From positions 3,670,001 to 3,734,000 of the forward strand of contig NZ_CP125377.1 of assembly GCF_034008315.1 (NCBI RefSeq): a stretch of 64,000 nt of DNA, in the 5' to 3' direction. Both the position numbers and the translations under genes were made by a program. The notes beneath the pieces are model-generated. The model saw only the letters and a program-made list of their open reading frames with translations, did not search any database and was not told the origin of the DNA. Shown here in pieces: positions 24,254 through 50,289 of this stretch. Positions within the stretch are counted from its first letter, which is position 1; each line of letters opens with the position of its first letter. This DNA is from Pseudomonas sp. P8_241. GTDB lineage: Bacteria; Pseudomonadota; Gammaproteobacteria; Pseudomonadales; Pseudomonadaceae.

Positions 24254-24403
24254 CCCTCGCAAAAATTTGGGTCTGTCATTGATAGCCAAGCGTCTGTCGT
24301 CAAATGTAAAGCGCCTCCCACCAGCGGGCGTTTTAATGGCAGTACTAAAAAAACTCCGCCTGAGTCACGCGTTGTTTGGTACGCCAAGCAGGAGAATAAC
24401 AAT

Positions 24404-25726
24404 ATGAAATTCGTGAAAAGTCTTTTGGCTGCGTCACTGCTCTCGACCCTGGCCCTTGATGCACAGGCCCTGGTCTCGAGTCGGGAAGCCGCCGAACTGG
24501 GCGCCAGCCTGACGCTGGTTGGCGCTGAAAAGGCCGGTAACGCCGACGGTTCAATCCCGCCTTACAGCGGTGGCCTGACCACTGCCCCGGCCGGTTTCAA
24601 GACCGGTGACAGCATGCGCCCGGATCCTTACGCAGCGGAGAAACCCCTGCTGGTAATCAATGGCAAGAACGTTGATCAGTACGCTGGCATGCTGACGGCC
24701 ACCACCGTTGCATTGGCCAAGCGTTTCCCCGGCTACCGCATCGACGTTTACCCGACCCATCGCACAGCATCGCTGCCGGAGGCGGTACTGGAAAACAGCC
24801 GCAAGAATGCCACCGGCGCCAAATCCCTCAGTGGCGGGATAGCTTTCGATAATGTCTTGCCCGGCGTGCCGTTCCCGATCCCGCAATCGGGCGCCGAGGC
24901 GATGTGGAATTTCCTGCTGCGTTATCAAGGCGTCAACATCCGCTCCAAATACGATTCGTGGAGTGTCGACTCGGCGGGTGTGGCGAGCCTGGCGGTTACC
25001 GGCGAAGCATTTGTCTCGTTCCCGATCTACGAGAACATGTCGAAGCCGATCAACAACTCCGACATCTATTACCAGTTGAAGCTGTCCTATACCGGACCTG
25101 CGCGGCGAGCCGGCGAGTCGGTCATGCTCAAGAACGCCACCAACCCGCTGCAACGTCCTGGTCGCGCCTGGCAGTACATGCCGGCCCAGCGCCGGGTCAA
25201 ACAGATTTCGATCCTGGCCTACGACACGCCGAACCCGGGAACTGCCCGTGCACTCGAACTGTATGACTGGACCCTGGTGGGCAAGCAGGAAATGATCGTG
25301 CCCTACAACACCTACAAACTGACCTATGCCCGCGATGCCAAGTCGCTGACCACCCCCAATTACCTTTCCCCGGACTTCGTGCGCTGGGAAAAACACCGCG
25401 TCTACGTGGTGGAGGGCAACCTCAAGCCCGGTGCAAAACACATCTACCAGAAACGCCGCTTTTACCTGGATGAAGACACCTGGGCCGCTGTGGCCTCCGA
25501 TCAATACGACACCAAGGGACAACTTTACCGTGGCTCCTTCGCTTTTCTCAGCCAGAGCTATGACGAGCAGGTCCCGGATGCCACCCCGTTCATGACCTAC
25601 GACCTTTCCCAGGGCACCTACAACATCAACGGCGTAGTCGGCCCCCATGGCGGCATTCACTACATCGCGCCGCTATCGACGGCGCAGTGGGTGCCGGAAT
25701 CCATGGCGGGTGCCGGCATTCGCTGA
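24404..25726 (+). CDS. DUF1329 secreted protein
   Basis: Predicted periplasmic/outer-membrane-associated protein of 440 residues. Residues 1-22 are a Sec signal peptide ending D-A-Q-A. The mature protein matches DUF1329, a LolA-like fold family common in Pseudomonas and often found near efflux or sterol/aromatic-degradation genes; no enzymatic activity is established. Features include the early G-A-S-L-T-L-V-G-A-E-K-A-G-N-A-D-G-S-I-P-P motif and the late I-N-G-V-V-G-P-H-G-G-I-H segment. AGGAG lies about 9 bases upstream of the ATG. It has no obvious partner here and is convergent with a GNAT gene. Confidence 0.85.
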   Translation: MKFVKSLLAASLLSTLALDAQALVSSREAAELGASLTLVGAEKAGNADGSIPPYSGGLTTAPAGFKTGDSMRPDPYAAEKPLLVINGKNVDQYAGMLTATTVALAKRFPGYRIDVYPTHRTASLPEAVLENSRKNATGAKSLSGGIAFDNVLPGVPFPIPQSGAEAMWNFLLRYQGVNIRSKYDSWSVDSAGVASLAVTGEAFVSFPIYENMSKPINNSDIYYQLKLSYTGPARRAGESVMLKNATNPLQRPGRAWQYMPAQRRVKQISILAYDTPNPGTARALELYDWTLVGKQEMIVPYNTYKLTYARDAKSLTTPNYLSPDFVRWEKHRVYVVEGNLKPGAKHIYQKRRFYLDEDTWAAVASDQYDTKGQLYRGSFAFLSQSYDEQVPDATPFMTYDLSQGTYNINGVVGPHGGIHYIAPLSTAQWVPESMAGAGIR

Positions 25727-43965: not shown

Positions 43966-44080
43966 ACACATTGGTTTTATTGGCTTATTTGTTGATTTTC
44001 AGGGTTAGGCCAGTGCCGCTGTTACAACTTCGAACAACTGGCAACAACGTATTGCGGGGAAACACCGATAACGCAAAACC

Positions 44081-44204
44081 TGTAGGAGCCGGCTTGCTGG
44101 CGATGACAGCCTCACATTCAACATCGCGGTTGACTGGTGCGCTGCTATCGCCAGCAAGCCGGCTCCTGCAGGAACATATGCGCCAGCAAGTCGGCTCTTA
44201 CAGG
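44081..44204. repeat. Three REP copies downstream of the permease gene
   Basis: An inverted REP pair (TGTAGGAGCCGGCTTGCTGGC ... GCCAGCAAGCCGGCTCCTGCA) is followed by a third, diverged copy ending GGCTCTTACAGG that abuts the permease stop codon. The cluster separates the permease transcript from the hydratase promoter and may act as a terminator. Confidence 0.8.
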
Positions 44205-44206
44205 GA

Positions 44207-45619
44207 TCAAGCCGTCGGCAAGCTCGGTGCCAACACACCCTGGCGTTTGCGATGAATCAGGAAGTACGCGCCATAACACAGCGCAATAAACCCAAAGCCC
44301 CAATACAACGACGGCCGCTGGGTTTCATCCAGCGCCAGGAATACGAACAGTGAGCAGCACAGCGTGATGCACATCAGCGGCAACACCGGGAACCACGGTG
44401 CGCGGTATTTCAGGTCGCTGAGTTTGCCGCCCTCACGCAGGTAGGCCTTGCGGAACTTGTACTGCGCCAGCGCGATGACAATCCAGGTCACGGTGCCGGA
44501 CATCCCGCTCACCGCCATCAGCACCATGAACAAGGTGTCAGCGGCGACGAAACTGGTCATCAACGACACCAGCGCAAAGCACAGGGTGATGCTCAAGGCC
44601 CGCAGTGGAACGCCACGCTTGCTCAGCGGTGACAGGCTTTTGGGCGCCATGCCGGTTTTCGACATCGCCCACAGAATCCGCGTCGAGGCATACAGCCCGG
44701 AGTTGCCCACCGACAAGATCGCCGTGAGGATCACGAAGTTCATCAGGTCCGCAGCGTAAGGAATGCCGACCATGTCGAACACCTGCACGAACGGACTTTC
44801 CATCAACCCCGCCTGCTGCCAAGGGACGATGGCCGACAGCACGATGATCGCCAGCACATAGAAAATCAGCACGCGAAACACCACGTTGCGCACGGCGCGG
44901 GGAATGCTCTTCTCCGGCTGATCGGTTTCGCCAGCGGCCACACCCATGATCTCGCAACCCTGGAACGCGTAGACCACGGTCATCATGACGGCGAACACAG
45001 CGGACAAGCCGTTGGGGAACAACGAGTCGCCAATCAGGTTGGTCGCCATCGGCGCCGGTGCGCCACTGCTCAGGGGCATCACACCGAAGATCACCAGCAC
45101 GCCGACTACGATGAACCCGAGAATCGCCGCCACCTTGATCCCCGAGAACCAGTATTCCGCTTCACCGAACGCACGGGTGGCCATGGCATTGATGCCGAAC
45201 AACACCACCACGAACAGCGCCGACCAGTACCAGATCGGGATCGTCGGGAACCAGCGCGTCATCAGCATGCCGGCGGCGGTGAATTCCAGGCCGACGGTGG
45301 TGGCCCAACTCATCCAGTACACCCAGCCGATCATGAAACCGGTGGCCGGGCCGATGTATTTCGTCGCGTGCGTCTGGAAGGAACCCGACACTGGCATCTG
45401 TACCGACAGTTCGCCGAGACAGACCATCACCAGATACATCAGGAAACCCGCCACGAGGTAAGCCAGAATCGCCCCCACCGGTCCGCCCTGGTTGATGGTC
45501 ACGCCCGAGCCCATGAACAGGCCGGTGCCAATCACGCCACCCAGGGACAACATGAATATGTGCCGGCTTTTCAAGGCGCGGGTGAGCTGGATGCCTTTGC
45601 GATCAGTGTTGTCGTTCAT
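44207..45619 (-). CDS. Amino acid permease (AAT/LysP-like), probable arginine importer
   Basis: APC-superfamily symporter of 470 residues with 12 hydrophobic segments; G-G-V-I-G-T-G-L-F in helix 1 and G-E-L-S-V-Q-M-P-V-S-G-S-F are diagnostic of the AAT family that imports basic and other amino acids. Cytoplasmic start M-N-D-N-T precedes the first helix. The ribosome site GAGGTG lies 5 bases before the ATG, inside a hairpin, and overlaps the stop codon of a 24-codon upstream ORF (see leader). It sits between the catabolic operon and the aruRS genes, so arginine or a related basic amino acid is the likely substrate, by position. Confidence 0.87.
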   Translation of the reverse strand: MNDNTDRKGIQLTRALKSRHIFMLSLGGVIGTGLFMGSGVTINQGGPVGAILAYLVAGFLMYLVMVCLGELSVQMPVSGSFQTHATKYIGPATGFMIGWVYWMSWATTVGLEFTAAGMLMTRWFPTIPIWYWSALFVVVLFGINAMATRAFGEAEYWFSGIKVAAILGFIVVGVLVIFGVMPLSSGAPAPMATNLIGDSLFPNGLSAVFAVMMTVVYAFQGCEIMGVAAGETDQPEKSIPRAVRNVVFRVLIFYVLAIIVLSAIVPWQQAGLMESPFVQVFDMVGIPYAADLMNFVILTAILSVGNSGLYASTRILWAMSKTGMAPKSLSPLSKRGVPLRALSITLCFALVSLMTSFVAADTLFMVLMAVSGMSGTVTWIVIALAQYKFRKAYLREGGKLSDLKYRAPWFPVLPLMCITLCCSLFVFLALDETQRPSLYWGFGFIALCYGAYFLIHRKRQGVLAPSLPTA

Positions 45620-45623
45620 GTCG

Positions 45624-45647
45624 GCACCTCAGCAGTCAGTGAGGTGC
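45624..45647 (-). promoter_or_regulatory. Hairpin sequestering the permease ribosome-binding site
   Basis: In the mRNA, GCACCTCA and TGAGGTGC form a perfect 8-bp stem with an 8-base loop. The 3' arm contains the permease Shine-Dalgarno GAGGTG. The 5' arm and loop are the last codons of the upstream leader ORF, and its TGA stop is the first triplet of the 3' arm, so a ribosome finishing the leader must open the stem. Confidence 0.6.
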
Positions 45648-45703
45648 GCAGCGCGTGACAGGAGGTCACGGCGCAGGGAGGAAGCAGCTTTACGGCATTT
45701 CAT
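45629..45703 (-). CDS. 24-residue arginine-containing leader peptide upstream of the permease
   Basis: Small ORF too short for usual gene finding. The minus-strand ATG at 45703 has a perfect GGAG 9 bases upstream (followed by ATAATAAT). It encodes M-K-C-R-K-A-A-S-S-L-R-R-D-L-L-S then R-A-A-H-L-T-D-C: four Arg and two Lys in 24 residues. The stop TGA overlaps the permease Shine-Dalgarno, with the permease ATG 10 bases later. A second hairpin at 45651-45674 (GCGCGTGAC ... GTCAC-g-GCGC on the plus strand) lies within the ORF. It may be a translational switch sensing charged arginyl-tRNA or arginine, or simply couple permease translation; function is inference from layout. Confidence 0.6.
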   Translation of the reverse strand: MKCRKAASSLRRDLLSRAAHLTDC

Positions 45704-45795
45704 TATTATTATCTCCAATAAGCTTCGAAGACCGCGCTGCGGCGGTTGCGTCGATTATTGGAAAGCGATGTAAGTTTGCGTTGACCGTAAAGATC

Positions 45796-45825
45796 GAAGT
45801 TGTAGAAAGTCGTAACAAACTTGTA
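45796..45825. promoter_or_regulatory. Three tandem 9-bp repeats, candidate AruR binding site
   Basis: GAAGTTGTA (45796), AAAGTCGTA (45806) and AAACTTGTA (45817) recur at 10- and 11-base steps, the spacing typical of OmpR-family direct repeats on one DNA face. They lie just downstream of the aruS stop codon, 93-122 bases before the leader ORF start. The centre, read on the minus strand as ACGACTTTCTACAA, matches the site upstream of the catabolic operon. Confidence 0.45.
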
Positions 45826-45827
45826 CG

Positions 45828-48074
45828 TCAGCGCTGCAACAGGGCTTCCAGAGCCTTCAGCGCGTGCTGCATCTGCTCGTGGACACGCGGTGCCAACGCT
45901 TCGATGGACGATTGATTGTTGGCCAGCGCCGCTTCTTCCAGTGCCCGCAGCGCCGAGGCCAAGGCACGAAATCCCAGCGAGTCACTGCTGCCCGCCAGTC
46001 GATGAGCCTGATGGGCGACTTCAGTACAGTCATCCGCCGCGATAGCGTCCTCCAGTGCTTCGCGATGCTGGACAATCGAGCTACGCAATACCCCAAGCAG
46101 TCCCTGGACCTTTTGCTCACCGAGCAAGGTGCGATGGGTTTGTATCAGCGGCCAGTCAATGACCTCGCCGTCCGGCACAGGCGTGGCGACTGGCGCTTGC
46201 CCTTGCAACACCTGACGCAGGTTTTCCAGCTTCAGCGGTTTGGCCAGGATGCCGTCCATGCCCGCCTCCAGATAACCACGCACCACCGCCGGTTGCACGC
46301 TGGCCGTCAGAGCGAAAATGCGGGTATGACGGTTAGGTCCTTCACAGTGGCGAACCCGCTTGCACAACTCGACGCCGCTGATCCCCGGCAAATGCACGTC
46401 GAGCAACAGCAGATCGAATCTGCGGGCGGCGCATTCAAGCACTGCCTGTTCCGCGTCTTCGGCCAGCCATACCTGATGGCCATCCCGTTGCAAAAGGCCC
46501 TTGACCACCTCGCGGTTGAGCGCCACGTCTTCGACCACCAGAATGTCCAGCGCCGGCCCGACTGCGCGAACCGGCAGCACTTTTTCGACACGGCTGGCCG
46601 GTTGCAACGTCAGCTCGAACCAGAAACAACTACCACGACCGACCTCGCTGTCGACCCCGATAATGCCACCCATCTGTTCCACCAGGTGTTTACAGATCGC
46701 CAGGCCCAATCCGGTGCCGCCAAAGCGCTGGGCCACTTCTTCGCTGGCCTGGGTGAATCGCTCGAAGATTTTCGTCTGCACGGAGGACGCGATGCCGATG
46801 CCGTTGTCGGTGACACTGATGCGCAATCTTTGCTCGGGTGCTTGATTGAGCAGCGCCACCTCGACACTGACCTCGCCACCTTCGGTGAACTTGATCGCGT
46901 TGGCCAGCAGGTTGCTCAACACTTGCCGCAAAAACTGCTCGGCACCCTGATGGTGCTCGGCGACCTGCGGGTCTATTCGGTGCAGCAGCAAGGTGTCGTT
47001 GCTCAGAGCGCGTGGTTCGAGCAGCGTCAGTACTTCATCCAGGAGCTGTCGAAAGGAGAAAACCACCGGTTCGGGATGGCTGACACCCTCCTCCAGCTTC
47101 GCGAAATACAGCACCTCATTGAGGATAGTCAGCAACCCTTCGCCAGCCTTGTGCAAGGCATCGAGGCGTTTGCCGTCCTGCTCGTCCAGACGCGCACCGC
47201 GCAACAGTTCGGCCATGCCGAGGATGCCGTTGAGCGGCGTGCGCAGTTCATGGCTCATGGTTGCCAGGAATCGCGATTTGGCGAGGTTGGCCGCTTCAGC
47301 TTCGTCCTTGGCGCGCATCAGGCTGGCGGTGCGGCGCTCGACCATCTTCAGCAATTGATCACGGTTGTCCTGCAAGGCCAGGCGATCGGTTTCCCGGCGC
47401 TCGATATCCCGCAGGATCGAGCGGCGCATGTCGTCAAGAGCCTGGGCCACGGTGTCGATTTCATCACTGCCGCGACGCTTGTCCAGATTCAACGGTTCTT
47501 GCCAGTCGCCGGCGGCGATGCTTCGGGCAAACTCGGCCATGACTTTCAGGTGGCGGGTGACCAGCCGATAAAACAACCCGGACAACGCCACCGCGAGGCC
47601 GCACAGGAATACGGCCATCCACAACAGACTGGTCAAACCGGTGGCGAACAGACGCTGATACACCGCGCCCAGATCGGTGCTGACTTCCAGTTCGCCGAGG
47701 TTGCGCAAGGGACCGGAGGGCGGCTGATAATCCAGGGCGAACCGCTCGATGCGCAACGGCCCGACGGGCTCCAGGTTACCTTGCACCAGATCGAAGTCGG
47801 GGCTGCTCAGATGCACCCGAGCCACGTCGGAAAAGTCCACCAACCCGCGCAACTGCACGTTCAGTTGCTCCTGATTCAAGTCCCAGAGACTGCGTTCCAG
47901 ACTGGCCAGATACCCGGCACGAATCAGCTCCATACGCGAATCGATGTCGCGCATTTCCCGTCGATACTCGATGTACAGCTGCACGCTGCTGGCCAGCACG
48001 GTGAAGCACAGGCTGAACAACAGGATGAACAGCAACAGGCGTCGCAGCAGTCCACCGGGCCGGGCGCGAATCAT
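45828..48074 (-). CDS. aruS: Hybrid sensor histidine kinase
   Basis: Membrane kinase of 748 residues. A first transmembrane helix (~residues 10-33), a ~110-residue periplasmic part and a second helix (~147-170) are followed by a HAMP-like linker. The HisKA domain has S-H-E-L-R-T-P with phospho-acceptor His275; the ATPase domain has the N-box near 388-395 and G1/G2 boxes; a receiver domain follows with phospho-acceptor Asp559; and a C-terminal HPt domain has A-H-R-L-A-G with His691. This is a full four-step phosphorelay that should end on AruR. Its ATG overlaps the stop of the binding-protein gene by 4 bases. Symbol based on context beside aruIH. Confidence 0.85.
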   Translation of the reverse strand: MIRARPGGLLRRLLLFILLFSLCFTVLASSVQLYIEYRREMRDIDSRMELIRAGYLASLERSLWDLNQEQLNVQLRGLVDFSDVARVHLSSPDFDLVQGNLEPVGPLRIERFALDYQPPSGPLRNLGELEVSTDLGAVYQRLFATGLTSLLWMAVFLCGLAVALSGLFYRLVTRHLKVMAEFARSIAAGDWQEPLNLDKRRGSDEIDTVAQALDDMRRSILRDIERRETDRLALQDNRDQLLKMVERRTASLMRAKDEAEAANLAKSRFLATMSHELRTPLNGILGMAELLRGARLDEQDGKRLDALHKAGEGLLTILNEVLYFAKLEEGVSHPEPVVFSFRQLLDEVLTLLEPRALSNDTLLLHRIDPQVAEHHQGAEQFLRQVLSNLLANAIKFTEGGEVSVEVALLNQAPEQRLRISVTDNGIGIASSVQTKIFERFTQASEEVAQRFGGTGLGLAICKHLVEQMGGIIGVDSEVGRGSCFWFELTLQPASRVEKVLPVRAVGPALDILVVEDVALNREVVKGLLQRDGHQVWLAEDAEQAVLECAARRFDLLLLDVHLPGISGVELCKRVRHCEGPNRHTRIFALTASVQPAVVRGYLEAGMDGILAKPLKLENLRQVLQGQAPVATPVPDGEVIDWPLIQTHRTLLGEQKVQGLLGVLRSSIVQHREALEDAIAADDCTEVAHQAHRLAGSSDSLGFRALASALRALEEAALANNQSSIEALAPRVHEQMQHALKALEALLQR

Positions 48075-48844
48075 TGCGCGTGCGCCGGCAGGTTGATCAT
48101 GTCGCGGTAAGTCACCTCACTTTCATTCAACCAGCGCTCGATATCACCGGCATCGACCATGCGCTGCAACTGCTCGTTGATTTGCGGCATGTGAATGGCC
48201 AGAGGAGATTTGCGCGAGACGGCAACCCGCAGGTAGTCAACGCTCAAGGCTTTGGGCAACGCGACAATGTCTTGGGCACCGGGCAGGTTTTCCACATACA
48301 GCTGCCCGGTCCGGCGCTCCTGGGTGATGAAGTCGATGCGCCCGCGAATCAACTTGCCAAAGTTCTGACGGCTGTCGGAGACCCATTCGATGTTGTTGTG
48401 TCGAGCCGCCATGCGATCGAATTCCACACCATAGCTCTCGCCGAACAACAGGCCGCCGCGATAGTGCGCCAGGTCGTCCAGTTCCTCGAACGTCACGGGG
48501 TGCCGGCGATTGATGAACAAGGCCACTTCTTCGCGCAGTACCGGCACCGTGGAGAACAGCATGCTTTGCTCCCGTTGTGCGGTGCTGTAGGCCAGCACCA
48601 CATCGACCCGGCCTTCGGCGGCGTCGAGCAGGCAGCGTTTCCAGTTACCCAGCACCACGACTTCAACGTCGTATCCCATTCGGCCGAAGAGGTTTTTCAC
48701 CACGCTGGGCGCCAGGCCTCGAACGTGTTTGCCGTCACTCCAGGAAATCGGCGGGTACACCGGATAATCGCAATAGCGCACCGTTTCGTTCGCCAGGGCA
48801 TTGCCCGACACCAGCACTGACAGCAGCCACAGCCACCGCTTCAT
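48071..48844 (-). CDS. Periplasmic solute-binding family 3 protein coupled to the sensor kinase
   Basis: Predicted secreted binding protein of 257 residues with a Sec signal peptide (residues 1-18, ending A-L-A). The mature part is a family 3 / PBPb-type fold (Y-P-P-I-S-W-S-D-G and G-R-V-D-V-V-L-A-Y motifs), as in amino-acid-binding proteins and in BvgS-like sensors. It lies between aruR (5-base gap) and aruS (4-base overlap), with no permease or ATPase attached, so it is more likely a signal-capturing partner of the kinase than a transport component. The ligand may be arginine or a related compound; this is inference. Confidence 0.82.
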   Translation of the reverse strand: MKRWLWLLSVLVSGNALANETVRYCDYPVYPPISWSDGKHVRGLAPSVVKNLFGRMGYDVEVVVLGNWKRCLLDAAEGRVDVVLAYSTAQREQSMLFSTVPVLREEVALFINRRHPVTFEELDDLAHYRGGLLFGESYGVEFDRMAARHNNIEWVSDSRQNFGKLIRGRIDFITQERRTGQLYVENLPGAQDIVALPKALSVDYLRVAVSRKSPLAIHMPQINEQLQRMVDAGDIERWLNESEVTYRDMINLPAHAQ

Positions 48845-48849
48845 GAAGA

Positions 48850-49566
48850 TCAGGCTGCCACGCCAGCGGTGAACAGGTAGCCGGCGCCGTGGATGGTGAT
48901 GATCAATTGTGGCTCCGACGGATCGTCATGCAACTTGCGGCGCAAGCGTCCGACCAGTACATCGATGGAGCGGTCGTTCGGCACCCATTCGCGGTTGCGG
49001 ATCTGATCCATCAACTGGTCGCGGCTGAGGGTGTGACCGCTGTTGCGCAGAAAGACGCTGAGCAACTGGAATTCGCCGTGGGTCAGCAGGGTTTCGCTAC
49101 CGGTGGGGTCGATCAGCCGGCGGCGGTCGGTGTCCAGCGCCCAGTCGGCGAACTGTTTGACCGGTTTGACGACGGCGGCAACTGCGTGTGGTACCTGTGC
49201 ATGGCGCACCCGGCGAATCAGGTTTTTCGCCCGGGACACCAGCTCACGCGGATTGAGCGGTTTGATCACGTAGTCATCGGCGCCGCATTCGAGGCCGACA
49301 ATGCGGTCGATTTCGTCGTTGCGCCCGGTGATCAGAATGATCCCGACTTCCGAGCGGACCCGCAGTTCGCGGGTCAGGGTCAGGCCGTCTTTGCCCGGCA
49401 GGCGGATGTCGAGCATCACCAGGTCGACGCTCTGGCTGGCGAGGAACGTTTCTGCCAGCTCGGCGGTGGCCGCGCAATGCACGTCGTAGCCTTCCTGGGA
49501 CAGGTAGGCGTGCAGCAAATCGCGAATCAGCGGATCGTCATCGACGATCAATACCCGAGGAGTCAT
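48850..49566 (-). CDS. aruR: OmpR-family response regulator
   Basis: DNA-binding response regulator of 238 residues. The receiver domain has the acidic D-D-D cluster at residues 9-11 and phospho-acceptor Asp53 in V-M-L-D-I-R-L-P-G-K-D-G; the C-terminal winged helix (~135-235) ends with R-R-K-L-H-D-D-P and G-A-G-Y-L-F-T. It heads a three-gene unit with the binding protein and hybrid kinase. Two DNA motifs in the neighbourhood with the direct-repeat spacing of this family (45796-45825, 43944-43965) are its likely targets. Symbol based on synteny with the arginine transaminase locus. Confidence 0.85.
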   Translation of the reverse strand: MTPRVLIVDDDPLIRDLLHAYLSQEGYDVHCAATAELAETFLASQSVDLVMLDIRLPGKDGLTLTRELRVRSEVGIILITGRNDEIDRIVGLECGADDYVIKPLNPRELVSRAKNLIRRVRHAQVPHAVAAVVKPVKQFADWALDTDRRRLIDPTGSETLLTHGEFQLLSVFLRNSGHTLSRDQLMDQIRNREWVPNDRSIDVLVGRLRRKLHDDPSEPQLIITIHGAGYLFTAGVAA

Positions 49567-49641
49567 TGCCGGTGTCCTGCTTGTTTCTTATTAGAGGGGT
49601 GCTGCATCAGCGCCAAAGAGTAGCCACTGCTGAACAAGTGA

Positions 49642-50289
49642 TCAACAGCTACTAGTCTGCCCGCAAAAGCGCTGACGTCCACCCGCCTGCAAACCGTCGA
49701 CCCAGGCTTCGCATATCTGGATGCCCTGCTCCGGGGTAAAGGTGCCGGGATTGAGCCCCGACTCCAGCCATAAACCGTCAAGCAAGGCACTGAGGCTGAT
49801 GGCGGCGAGGTCCGCGTCGAAGTTTTCCCAGCCCTCCTCCTGCGCCAGTTCCGTCAGCACCTTGCGCAGGATGCCGCGGTACTCACCGTAGGAATGGTCG
49901 TGGGCCTGGTTGATCGCTTCGGCGGTTTTCACCGCTCCCCAGAATGCAAGCCAGGCATCGATCAGCTGCGGATCGAGCAATTCGGCGGAAAACGAACCGC
50001 GAAAAAACGCCGACAAACGCTCCCGGGCATTGGGCGCGGCTTGCTCCATGGCGTCGCGCAACAAGGTCATCACACGCCCGGTGATCGCCATGTAAGCCTC
50101 GGCCACCAGTTCGTCCTTACCGGAGTAGTGATGGCTGATCAGCCCGACCGACACCCCGGCCTCGGCGGAAATCTTGCGGATCGACGCGCCCTGGAAGCCA
50201 TGGCGCTTGAGACACACCAGCGTCGCCTCGATCAGGTTGGCTTTGCGCAACTCCGGTTCCATGCGGGAAAAACGGGCTTCCTGATTCAT
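49642..50289 (-). CDS. TetR-family regulator (BetI-like)
   Basis: Repressor of 215 residues. The N-terminal HTH (residues ~12-60) has A-T-L-V-C-L-K-R-H-G-F-Q-G-A-S-I-R-K-I-S and S-V-G-L-I-S-H-H-Y, the latter very close to BetI-type regulators; the rest is a helical ligand-binding domain. The ATG at 50289 is chosen since AAGGAG lies 8 bases upstream; a GTG three codons earlier abuts that site. A 16-bp palindrome 49-66 bases before the start is probably its own operator, and a near copy lies in the catabolic-operon promoter, so it may control arginine catabolism together with AruR. Confidence 0.87.
   Translation of the reverse strand: MNQEARFSRMEPELRKANLIEATLVCLKRHGFQGASIRKISAEAGVSVGLISHHYSGKDELVAEAYMAITGRVMTLLRDAMEQAAPNARERLSAFFRGSFSAELLDPQLIDAWLAFWGAVKTAEAINQAHDHSYGEYRGILRKVLTELAQEEGWENFDADLAAISLSALLDGLWLESGLNPGTFTPEQGIQICEAWVDGLQAGGRQRFCGQTSSC

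Follow-up and report, generated by a model that had tools for sequence, protein, structure and literature searches.

A conserved leader ORF ahead of a Pseudomonas permease gene: probable translational coupling and a candidate Hfq/Crc site at the leader start

A short leader ORF precedes the gene of an APC-type amino-acid permease in Pseudomonas sp. P8_241, and it is a real, conserved feature rather than a local accident. The window, the whole stretch of DNA analysed, comprised 64,000 nt (NZ_CP125377.1, positions 3,670,001 to 3,734,000; GCF_034008315.1). Translation of the leader is very probably coupled to that of the permease. Ribosomes would initiate at the strong GGAGA site of the leader, traverse a short track whose amino-acid sequence should hardly matter, and open the hairpin in which the permease Shine-Dalgarno (SD) site is hidden. 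They would terminate on or beside the permease start, where the same or following ribosomes would begin the permease. Leader translation is thus expected both to occur and to be required, with reinitiation as the presumed route. The control point would be the leader start, a candidate target of Hfq/Crc carbon catabolite repression with the motif AANAANAA (proposed binding site AAUAAUAAU), so that a block on the leader would also shut off the permease. Once coupling is granted, gating by Hfq/Crc is likely; the two together, a coupled leader gated at its start, we regard as reasonably probable. The features on which this reading is built are displayed by the sequences themselves: the start signature, the stop position, unconstrained codons 8-17, occlusion of the permease SD and natural fusions.

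The leader ORF and its conservation

The features of the locus are listed in Table 1. The sequence-only reading had described the leader as a 24-codon ORF with four Arg and two Lys codons and a GGAG site (45716-45713), and its coordinates, frame and codon content were all confirmed in the sequence. The description of its end was equally correct: an 8-bp hairpin lies over the GAGGTG of the permease, and the TGA opens its 3' arm as the first triplet. Nine bases separate the leader end from the permease ATG (45619).

Table 1 Features of the leader-permease locus, in positions of the window.
Feature	Position	Strand	Basis
Short 5'-UTR hairpin ACCGC/GCGGT	45731..45746 (arms 45746-45742, 45735-45731)	-	stem count vs shuffles
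Leader Shine-Dalgarno GGAGA	45712..45716	-	unvarying in 145/145 distinct rows
AAUAAUAA, AANAANAA-type motif, candidate Hfq/Crc site across leader start	45703..45710	-	variation at N positions only, 145 rows; binding presumed
Leader ORF, 24 codons + TGA, encoding MKCRKAASSLRRDLLSRAAHLTDC	45629..45703	-	sequence; start and stop position conserved
Intra-leader hairpin, 5' arm CGTGAC	45665..45670	-	92% of cells paired, 33 sequences
Intra-leader hairpin, 3' arm GTCACG	45654..45659	-	pairing across 33 sequences
SD hairpin, 5' arm GCACCTCA	45640..45647	-	fold + pairing across orthologs
SD hairpin, loop CTGACTGC	45639-45632	-	sequence
SD hairpin, 3' arm TGAGGTGC, contains leader stop and permease SD	45624..45631	-	fold, pairing, occlusion
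Permease Shine-Dalgarno GAGGTG	45625..45630	-	sequence
APC-type amino-acid permease, 470 aa, unproven substrate	44207..45619	-	ORF + NCBIfam search

The permease had been called arginine-type, which was not borne out. Its best NCBIfam match was the S-methylmethionine permease, scoring 529.5 bits where the cut-off is 716, and because this match lies below the cut-off of that model, the label is unproven. Upstream lie a hybrid kinase gene and a regulator gene, matched in NCBIfam by general kinase and regulator families only, which we take to be AruS-like and AruR-like, respectively. A kinase match was present in 108/108 loci tested, and the kinase stood directly upstream of the permease in 8/8 loci whose position was given. 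Repeated TTACG/TTACA-like boxes were seen by eye ahead of the leader (about 45750-45830, minus strand) and also at related loci; the adjacent AruR-like regulator may bind them. The hairpin in the 5'-UTR formed stems of at least 5 pairs in 143/145 rows, compared with about 62/145 in mononucleotide shuffles, with arm variants that included GCCGC/GCGGC and CCGTG/CACGG. A known riboswitch or RNA family was rejected for the leader: a search of 44000-49700 against Rfam with E up to 5 gave four matches, none of which reached its gathering score or lay in the leader. On the 3' side of the permease, at 44068-44176, weak sub-threshold matches to unrelated RNA families occurred on both strands, and this stretch may be a repetitive extragenic element.

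Orthologs were taken from the best 80 of 160 loci in named genomes, from 56/298 genomes of the genus (E 1e-150) and from 60/298 of the family (E 1e-120, which was loose enough to let in paralogs as well). This gave 185 orthologous loci, 182 of them with a permease anchor, and 145 distinct upstream sequences, 36 from two other genus codes. The distinct sequences were used because the 185 loci contain species repeats between collections as well as the window's own locus. The start signature GGAGANAANAANAATG was found in 184/185 loci and three genus codes. It was kept, with its ATG, in 145/145 distinct anchored rows, each with its own SD, which opens a short upstream ORF in the 131 non-fused rows, so that conservation of the ORF start, raised as a check by the sequence-only reading, held throughout. 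No anchored row failed the signature used to locate the start; the fixed columns are therefore not an artefact of row selection. The signature was present in 0/19 paralogous permeases (45-48% identity, located by tblastn).

Three unanchored loci (L190, L191 and L192) were left out of the 182 and inspected separately. Two of them (L190 and L192) carried the signature, with a leader stop at +8. The third (L191), a divergent second copy of 79% identity, was without it. This copy has an unrelated 46-codon ORF that ends in a TAA overlapping the permease start (ATGGCTAA); GACAACAAG stands right before the ATG of that ORF.

Stop position, hairpin and natural fusions

All 131 distinct non-fused leaders stopped within -11 to +8 nt of the permease start, at offsets of -11, -10, -9, -8, -1, +4 and +8, in all three relative frames. 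Their lengths ranged from 16 to 32 codons, and the stop codon was TGA in 129 and TAA in 2. A stop near the permease start is in itself not rare, as 45.6% of shuffled, frame-randomised leaders also ended in this zone when the real SD/start region was kept. After removal of 1-2 nt, 27/116 leaders ended there. Stops of the frame +2 control fell in the zone in 2/131 cases; the frame +1 control (0/131) is trivial, because ATGA puts a stop there at once, and the 45.6% of the shuffles is the fairer yardstick. The stop position was retained over many changes: the permease tree required at least 16 changes of frame state, with fusion counted as a state, and at least 29 of leader length. Fourteen independent successes at 0.456, the two fusions excluded, have a probability of about 2e-5, where the independence of the changes is an approximation. 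The tree was a quick one, with 35 rows that had under half of the columns filled and one aberrant long branch (L152), and its root was placed by hand on the other genera (support 72).

The fold of 45740-45590 paired the permease SD, with an MFE of -45.8 kcal/mol (z -1.83; 8/200 shuffles were as good). Fifty-eight representatives, chosen at <=88% identity and not independent of each other, were folded. Opening of the permease SD cost 9.2 kcal/mol, compared with 6.7 in shuffles (Wilcoxon p 1.4e-7, kinship uncorrected). Occlusion exceeded the shuffle mean in 47/58 representatives and lay in the top 5% in 22/58. At least half of the shuffles matched or exceeded the opening cost in 10/58, and with SD exposure ordinary in these, the lock is not universal. 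Among gap-free leaders of the 24-codon class (33 distinct sequences), the SD hairpin was paired in 93% of cells; a shift of the hairpin by 1-4 nt lowered this to 19-48%. The outermost pair held in 21/33 only, and there were two two-sided changes, one cell each. The lock is thus favoured, though rebuilt or lost in some clades, and the expectation that both hairpin arms are conserved across homologs stood for the 24-codon class.

A second hairpin lies within the leader (CGTGAC/GTCACG). In the same 33 sequences it was paired in 92% of cells, versus 4-55% when slid, and one of its pairs was G-C in 14, A-T in 10 and G-T in 6. It is missing from clades with shorter leaders.

An SD-sequestering hairpin is common to translational attenuators and plain coupling, and its opening by ribosomes would be the step they share here. 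The proposal that leader translation opens the permease site is well supported by the comparison, since the ORF is kept open up to the permease start and the SD is occluded.

At 14 distinct loci in two lineages, the leader start was fused in frame to the permease. The fused genes belong to a 13-row clade (support 100) and a single locus (L080). With no start of its own, the permease there opens at the leader ATG, and the N-termini are MKGRKAEGIHLTR... and MKGRNADSPRQGIHLTR..., respectively. In the fused species the leader ATG is thus the nearest ATG for the permease; for the non-fused species this makes a strong though indirect case that the leader start is used. By themselves the fusions show no more than that the permease can be served from the leader start.

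The same fused genes, in which this start drives the permease, could be taken to mean that the permease formerly began at the leader ATG and that an insertion left a spurious, now untranslated short ORF. On the tree this relic start was rejected and we find it scarcely credible: with the root on other genera, the fusions are nested among leader-bearing lineages, and both other genera have the leader. The invariant signature and the stops that remain near the start after many frame changes argue against it as well.

The leader peptide and its arginine codons

Constraint on the peptide was assessed by dN/dS in 1005 close pairs, the members of which are not independent. Codons 8-17 gave 1.0, with 0.87 and 0.84 in the unused frames. 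For codons 8-19 the value was 0.76, compared with 0.98 and 0.85, so that a mild constraint begins at the hairpin arm. Codons 2-7 gave 0.55 (unused frames 1.31 and 0.46), and with 0.46 in unused frame 2, peptide and DNA-level constraint cannot be told apart there. Thirty permease codons gave 0.02 (10384 pairs). Since the unused frames behave similarly, the middle of the leader shows no coding constraint, and the constraint at its 5' end may be on the RNA. The track of the leader is conserved and the peptide is not; as far as this evolutionary test goes, peptide identity would not be required. Much of codons 3-6 (about 45697-45686, TGCCGTAAAGCT) is kept at the DNA level, synonymous sites included, beyond the rest of the leader.

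The sequence-only reading had proposed an arginine-sensitive switch, in which a ribosome pausing at the leader Arg codons sets whether the SD hairpin opens. The four Arg among the 24 codons of the window leader speak for it. A mild Arg excess was indeed present, with 16.1% of codons from codon 8 to the SD, compared with 10.8% in mononucleotide shuffles, although unused frame +2 reached 14.9% as well. Codon 4 was CGT in 122/145 rows; judged from the distances, a ribosome stalled there would fall short of the hairpin. One clade was Arg-rich (MIQRRVPLSRARRS...), and across the 131 leaders the number of Arg ahead of the SD region ranged from 0 to 6, with 0 in one and 1 in ten. The number of Arg codons was thus not kept. 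A conserved run of Arg codons was not found in the 131 leaders, and codons 8-17, where dN/dS is 1.0, offer no sign of one. Within 45550-45900 there were 0 terminator-like sites. The presumed AruS-like kinase gene, found at every locus tested, would suit an arginine switch, while the unproven permease substrate weakens it. Sensing of arginine by the leader was not supported, and we consider this switch very improbable.

Arginine attenuation was rejected as unsupported, after Arg codons were counted, unused frames compared, dN/dS estimated and the region scanned for terminators. Nascent-peptide arrest was rejected too, as the C-terminal codons vary among clades and frames. Catabolite control via Hfq/Crc at the leader start appears the better guess than an amino-acid sensor, and the permease is probably under carbon-source rather than arginine control.

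The leader start as a candidate Hfq/Crc site

Over the 145 rows, columns -16 to +4 around the leader start were fixed, apart from a change at -15 in 2 rows and variation at the three N positions. In the spacer between the leader SD and ATG, the A positions of AANAANAA never varied, and all three N positions did. The spacer between the permease's own SD and ATG varies. Two CrcZ-type RNAs are present in the genome. The wider SD-motif-ATG pattern occurred at 12 genome sites, versus 4 for a reversed control. Thirteen SD-plus-motif starts were read, these 12 and one further: 10 open ORFs of at least 295 aa, and three belong to short ORFs of 24, 33 and 4 codons, among which the following gene start was checked for the leader alone.

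A-rich spacers favour translation initiation in general, and the spacer might merely provide a strong, unstructured start. Coupling would then operate without Hfq/Crc, and the leader would set a fixed permease level or guard the mRNA against early termination. All of the coupling evidence is neutral about Crc, and Crc data for the gene were not found in the literature searched, where PA4981, to which the sequence-only reading had likened the permease, was named in 2 papers, neither of them on Crc by title. Pure coupling does not readily account for A positions that are unvarying in 145 rows beside N positions that all vary, nor for the contrast with the variable permease spacer. The 10 of 13 SD-plus-motif starts that open long ORFs would likewise fit a start type that marks Crc-controlled genes, which are here presumed targets. 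We therefore hold pure coupling to be unlikely, though well worth weighing, and prefer a leader gated by Hfq/Crc.

In the available text of the P. aeruginosa Crc regulon paper (PMC6235884) PA4981 occurs 0 times, and in that of a transporter screen (PMC2542419) once, within a mutant list. Hfq/Crc repression of the leader or permease was not found in the literature searched, and a description of the leader was likewise not found there, in a search of the available texts.

In operons such as atpHA and nifLA, a structure that covers the start region of the second gene is opened when the first is translated. Both partners are functional proteins in those pairs, whereas the upstream ORF at the permease appears to be a track only. 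A short leader ORF also stands beside an RNA hairpin in amino-acid attenuators and ermC-type leaders; unlike these, the permease leader has no conserved codon run, arrest peptide or terminator-like site.

The closest likeness was to cbrX-cbrA of P. putida. According to the available text of PMC6591292, cbrX overlaps cbrA, its translation is needed for cbrA translation, and an altered peptide works. A potential Hfq/Crc site, AAUAAUAAG, lies in the mRNA leader of cbrX (PMC6591292; PMC13022988, as far as their available texts go). Common to the two systems are a candidate Hfq/Crc site at a small ORF, and, as cbrX is described there, a small out-of-frame upstream ORF with its stop past the downstream start and a downstream gene dependent on its translation rather than on which peptide it encodes, a dependence presumed for the permease; no homology to CbrX is claimed. 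In the same description CbrX has 58 codons and a 17-nt overlap, compared with 16-32 codons and an end at -11 to +8 nt here. Moreover, cbrA is without a recognisable SD, whereas the permease has a good one concealed by a hairpin, and CbrX, which co-purifies with CbrA, is a membrane peptide, whereas codons 8-17 of the permease leader are without peptide constraint. The permease leader would be the cleaner case, because most of its peptide shows no sign of function and the fusions mark a working start. If the reading is true, it adds a further case besides cbrX-cbrA of Hfq/Crc acting via a coupled small ORF.

In the available text of a computational regulon study (PMC3003667), AANAANAA is the Crc motif, and direct Hfq/Crc targets likewise have AAnAAnAA/AANAANAA beside the SD of a nutrient-transport gene. 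That survey scanned -70 to +16 of annotated starts, as its text has it. Counted from the permease ATG, the window motif lies at -91 to -84, outside this zone, and in genera and clades with shorter leaders it would fall within it. We slightly favour the reading in its widest form, a content-free relay ORF of which only the start, the Hfq/Crc operator and the place of the stop are kept, with most of the peptide, the length and the frame drifting across three genera. If true, catabolite control would be displaced by about 50 to 100 nt from the start of the gene as annotated, and start-centred surveys can therefore miss such targets; in two lineages an N-terminal fusion would be what is left of the relay. 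Gating at the leader start would also explain how catabolite control can reach a transporter whose annotated start has no A-rich motif nearby, and would make the starts of leader ORFs worth scanning for Hfq/Crc sites.

Elsewhere in the window, at 24391-24406 on the plus strand, an SD and AANAANAA were observed at the start of a 440-residue ORF (MKFVKSLLAAS...). Two further genome ORFs with similar N-termini share the same start architecture, so all three look like direct Hfq/Crc targets.
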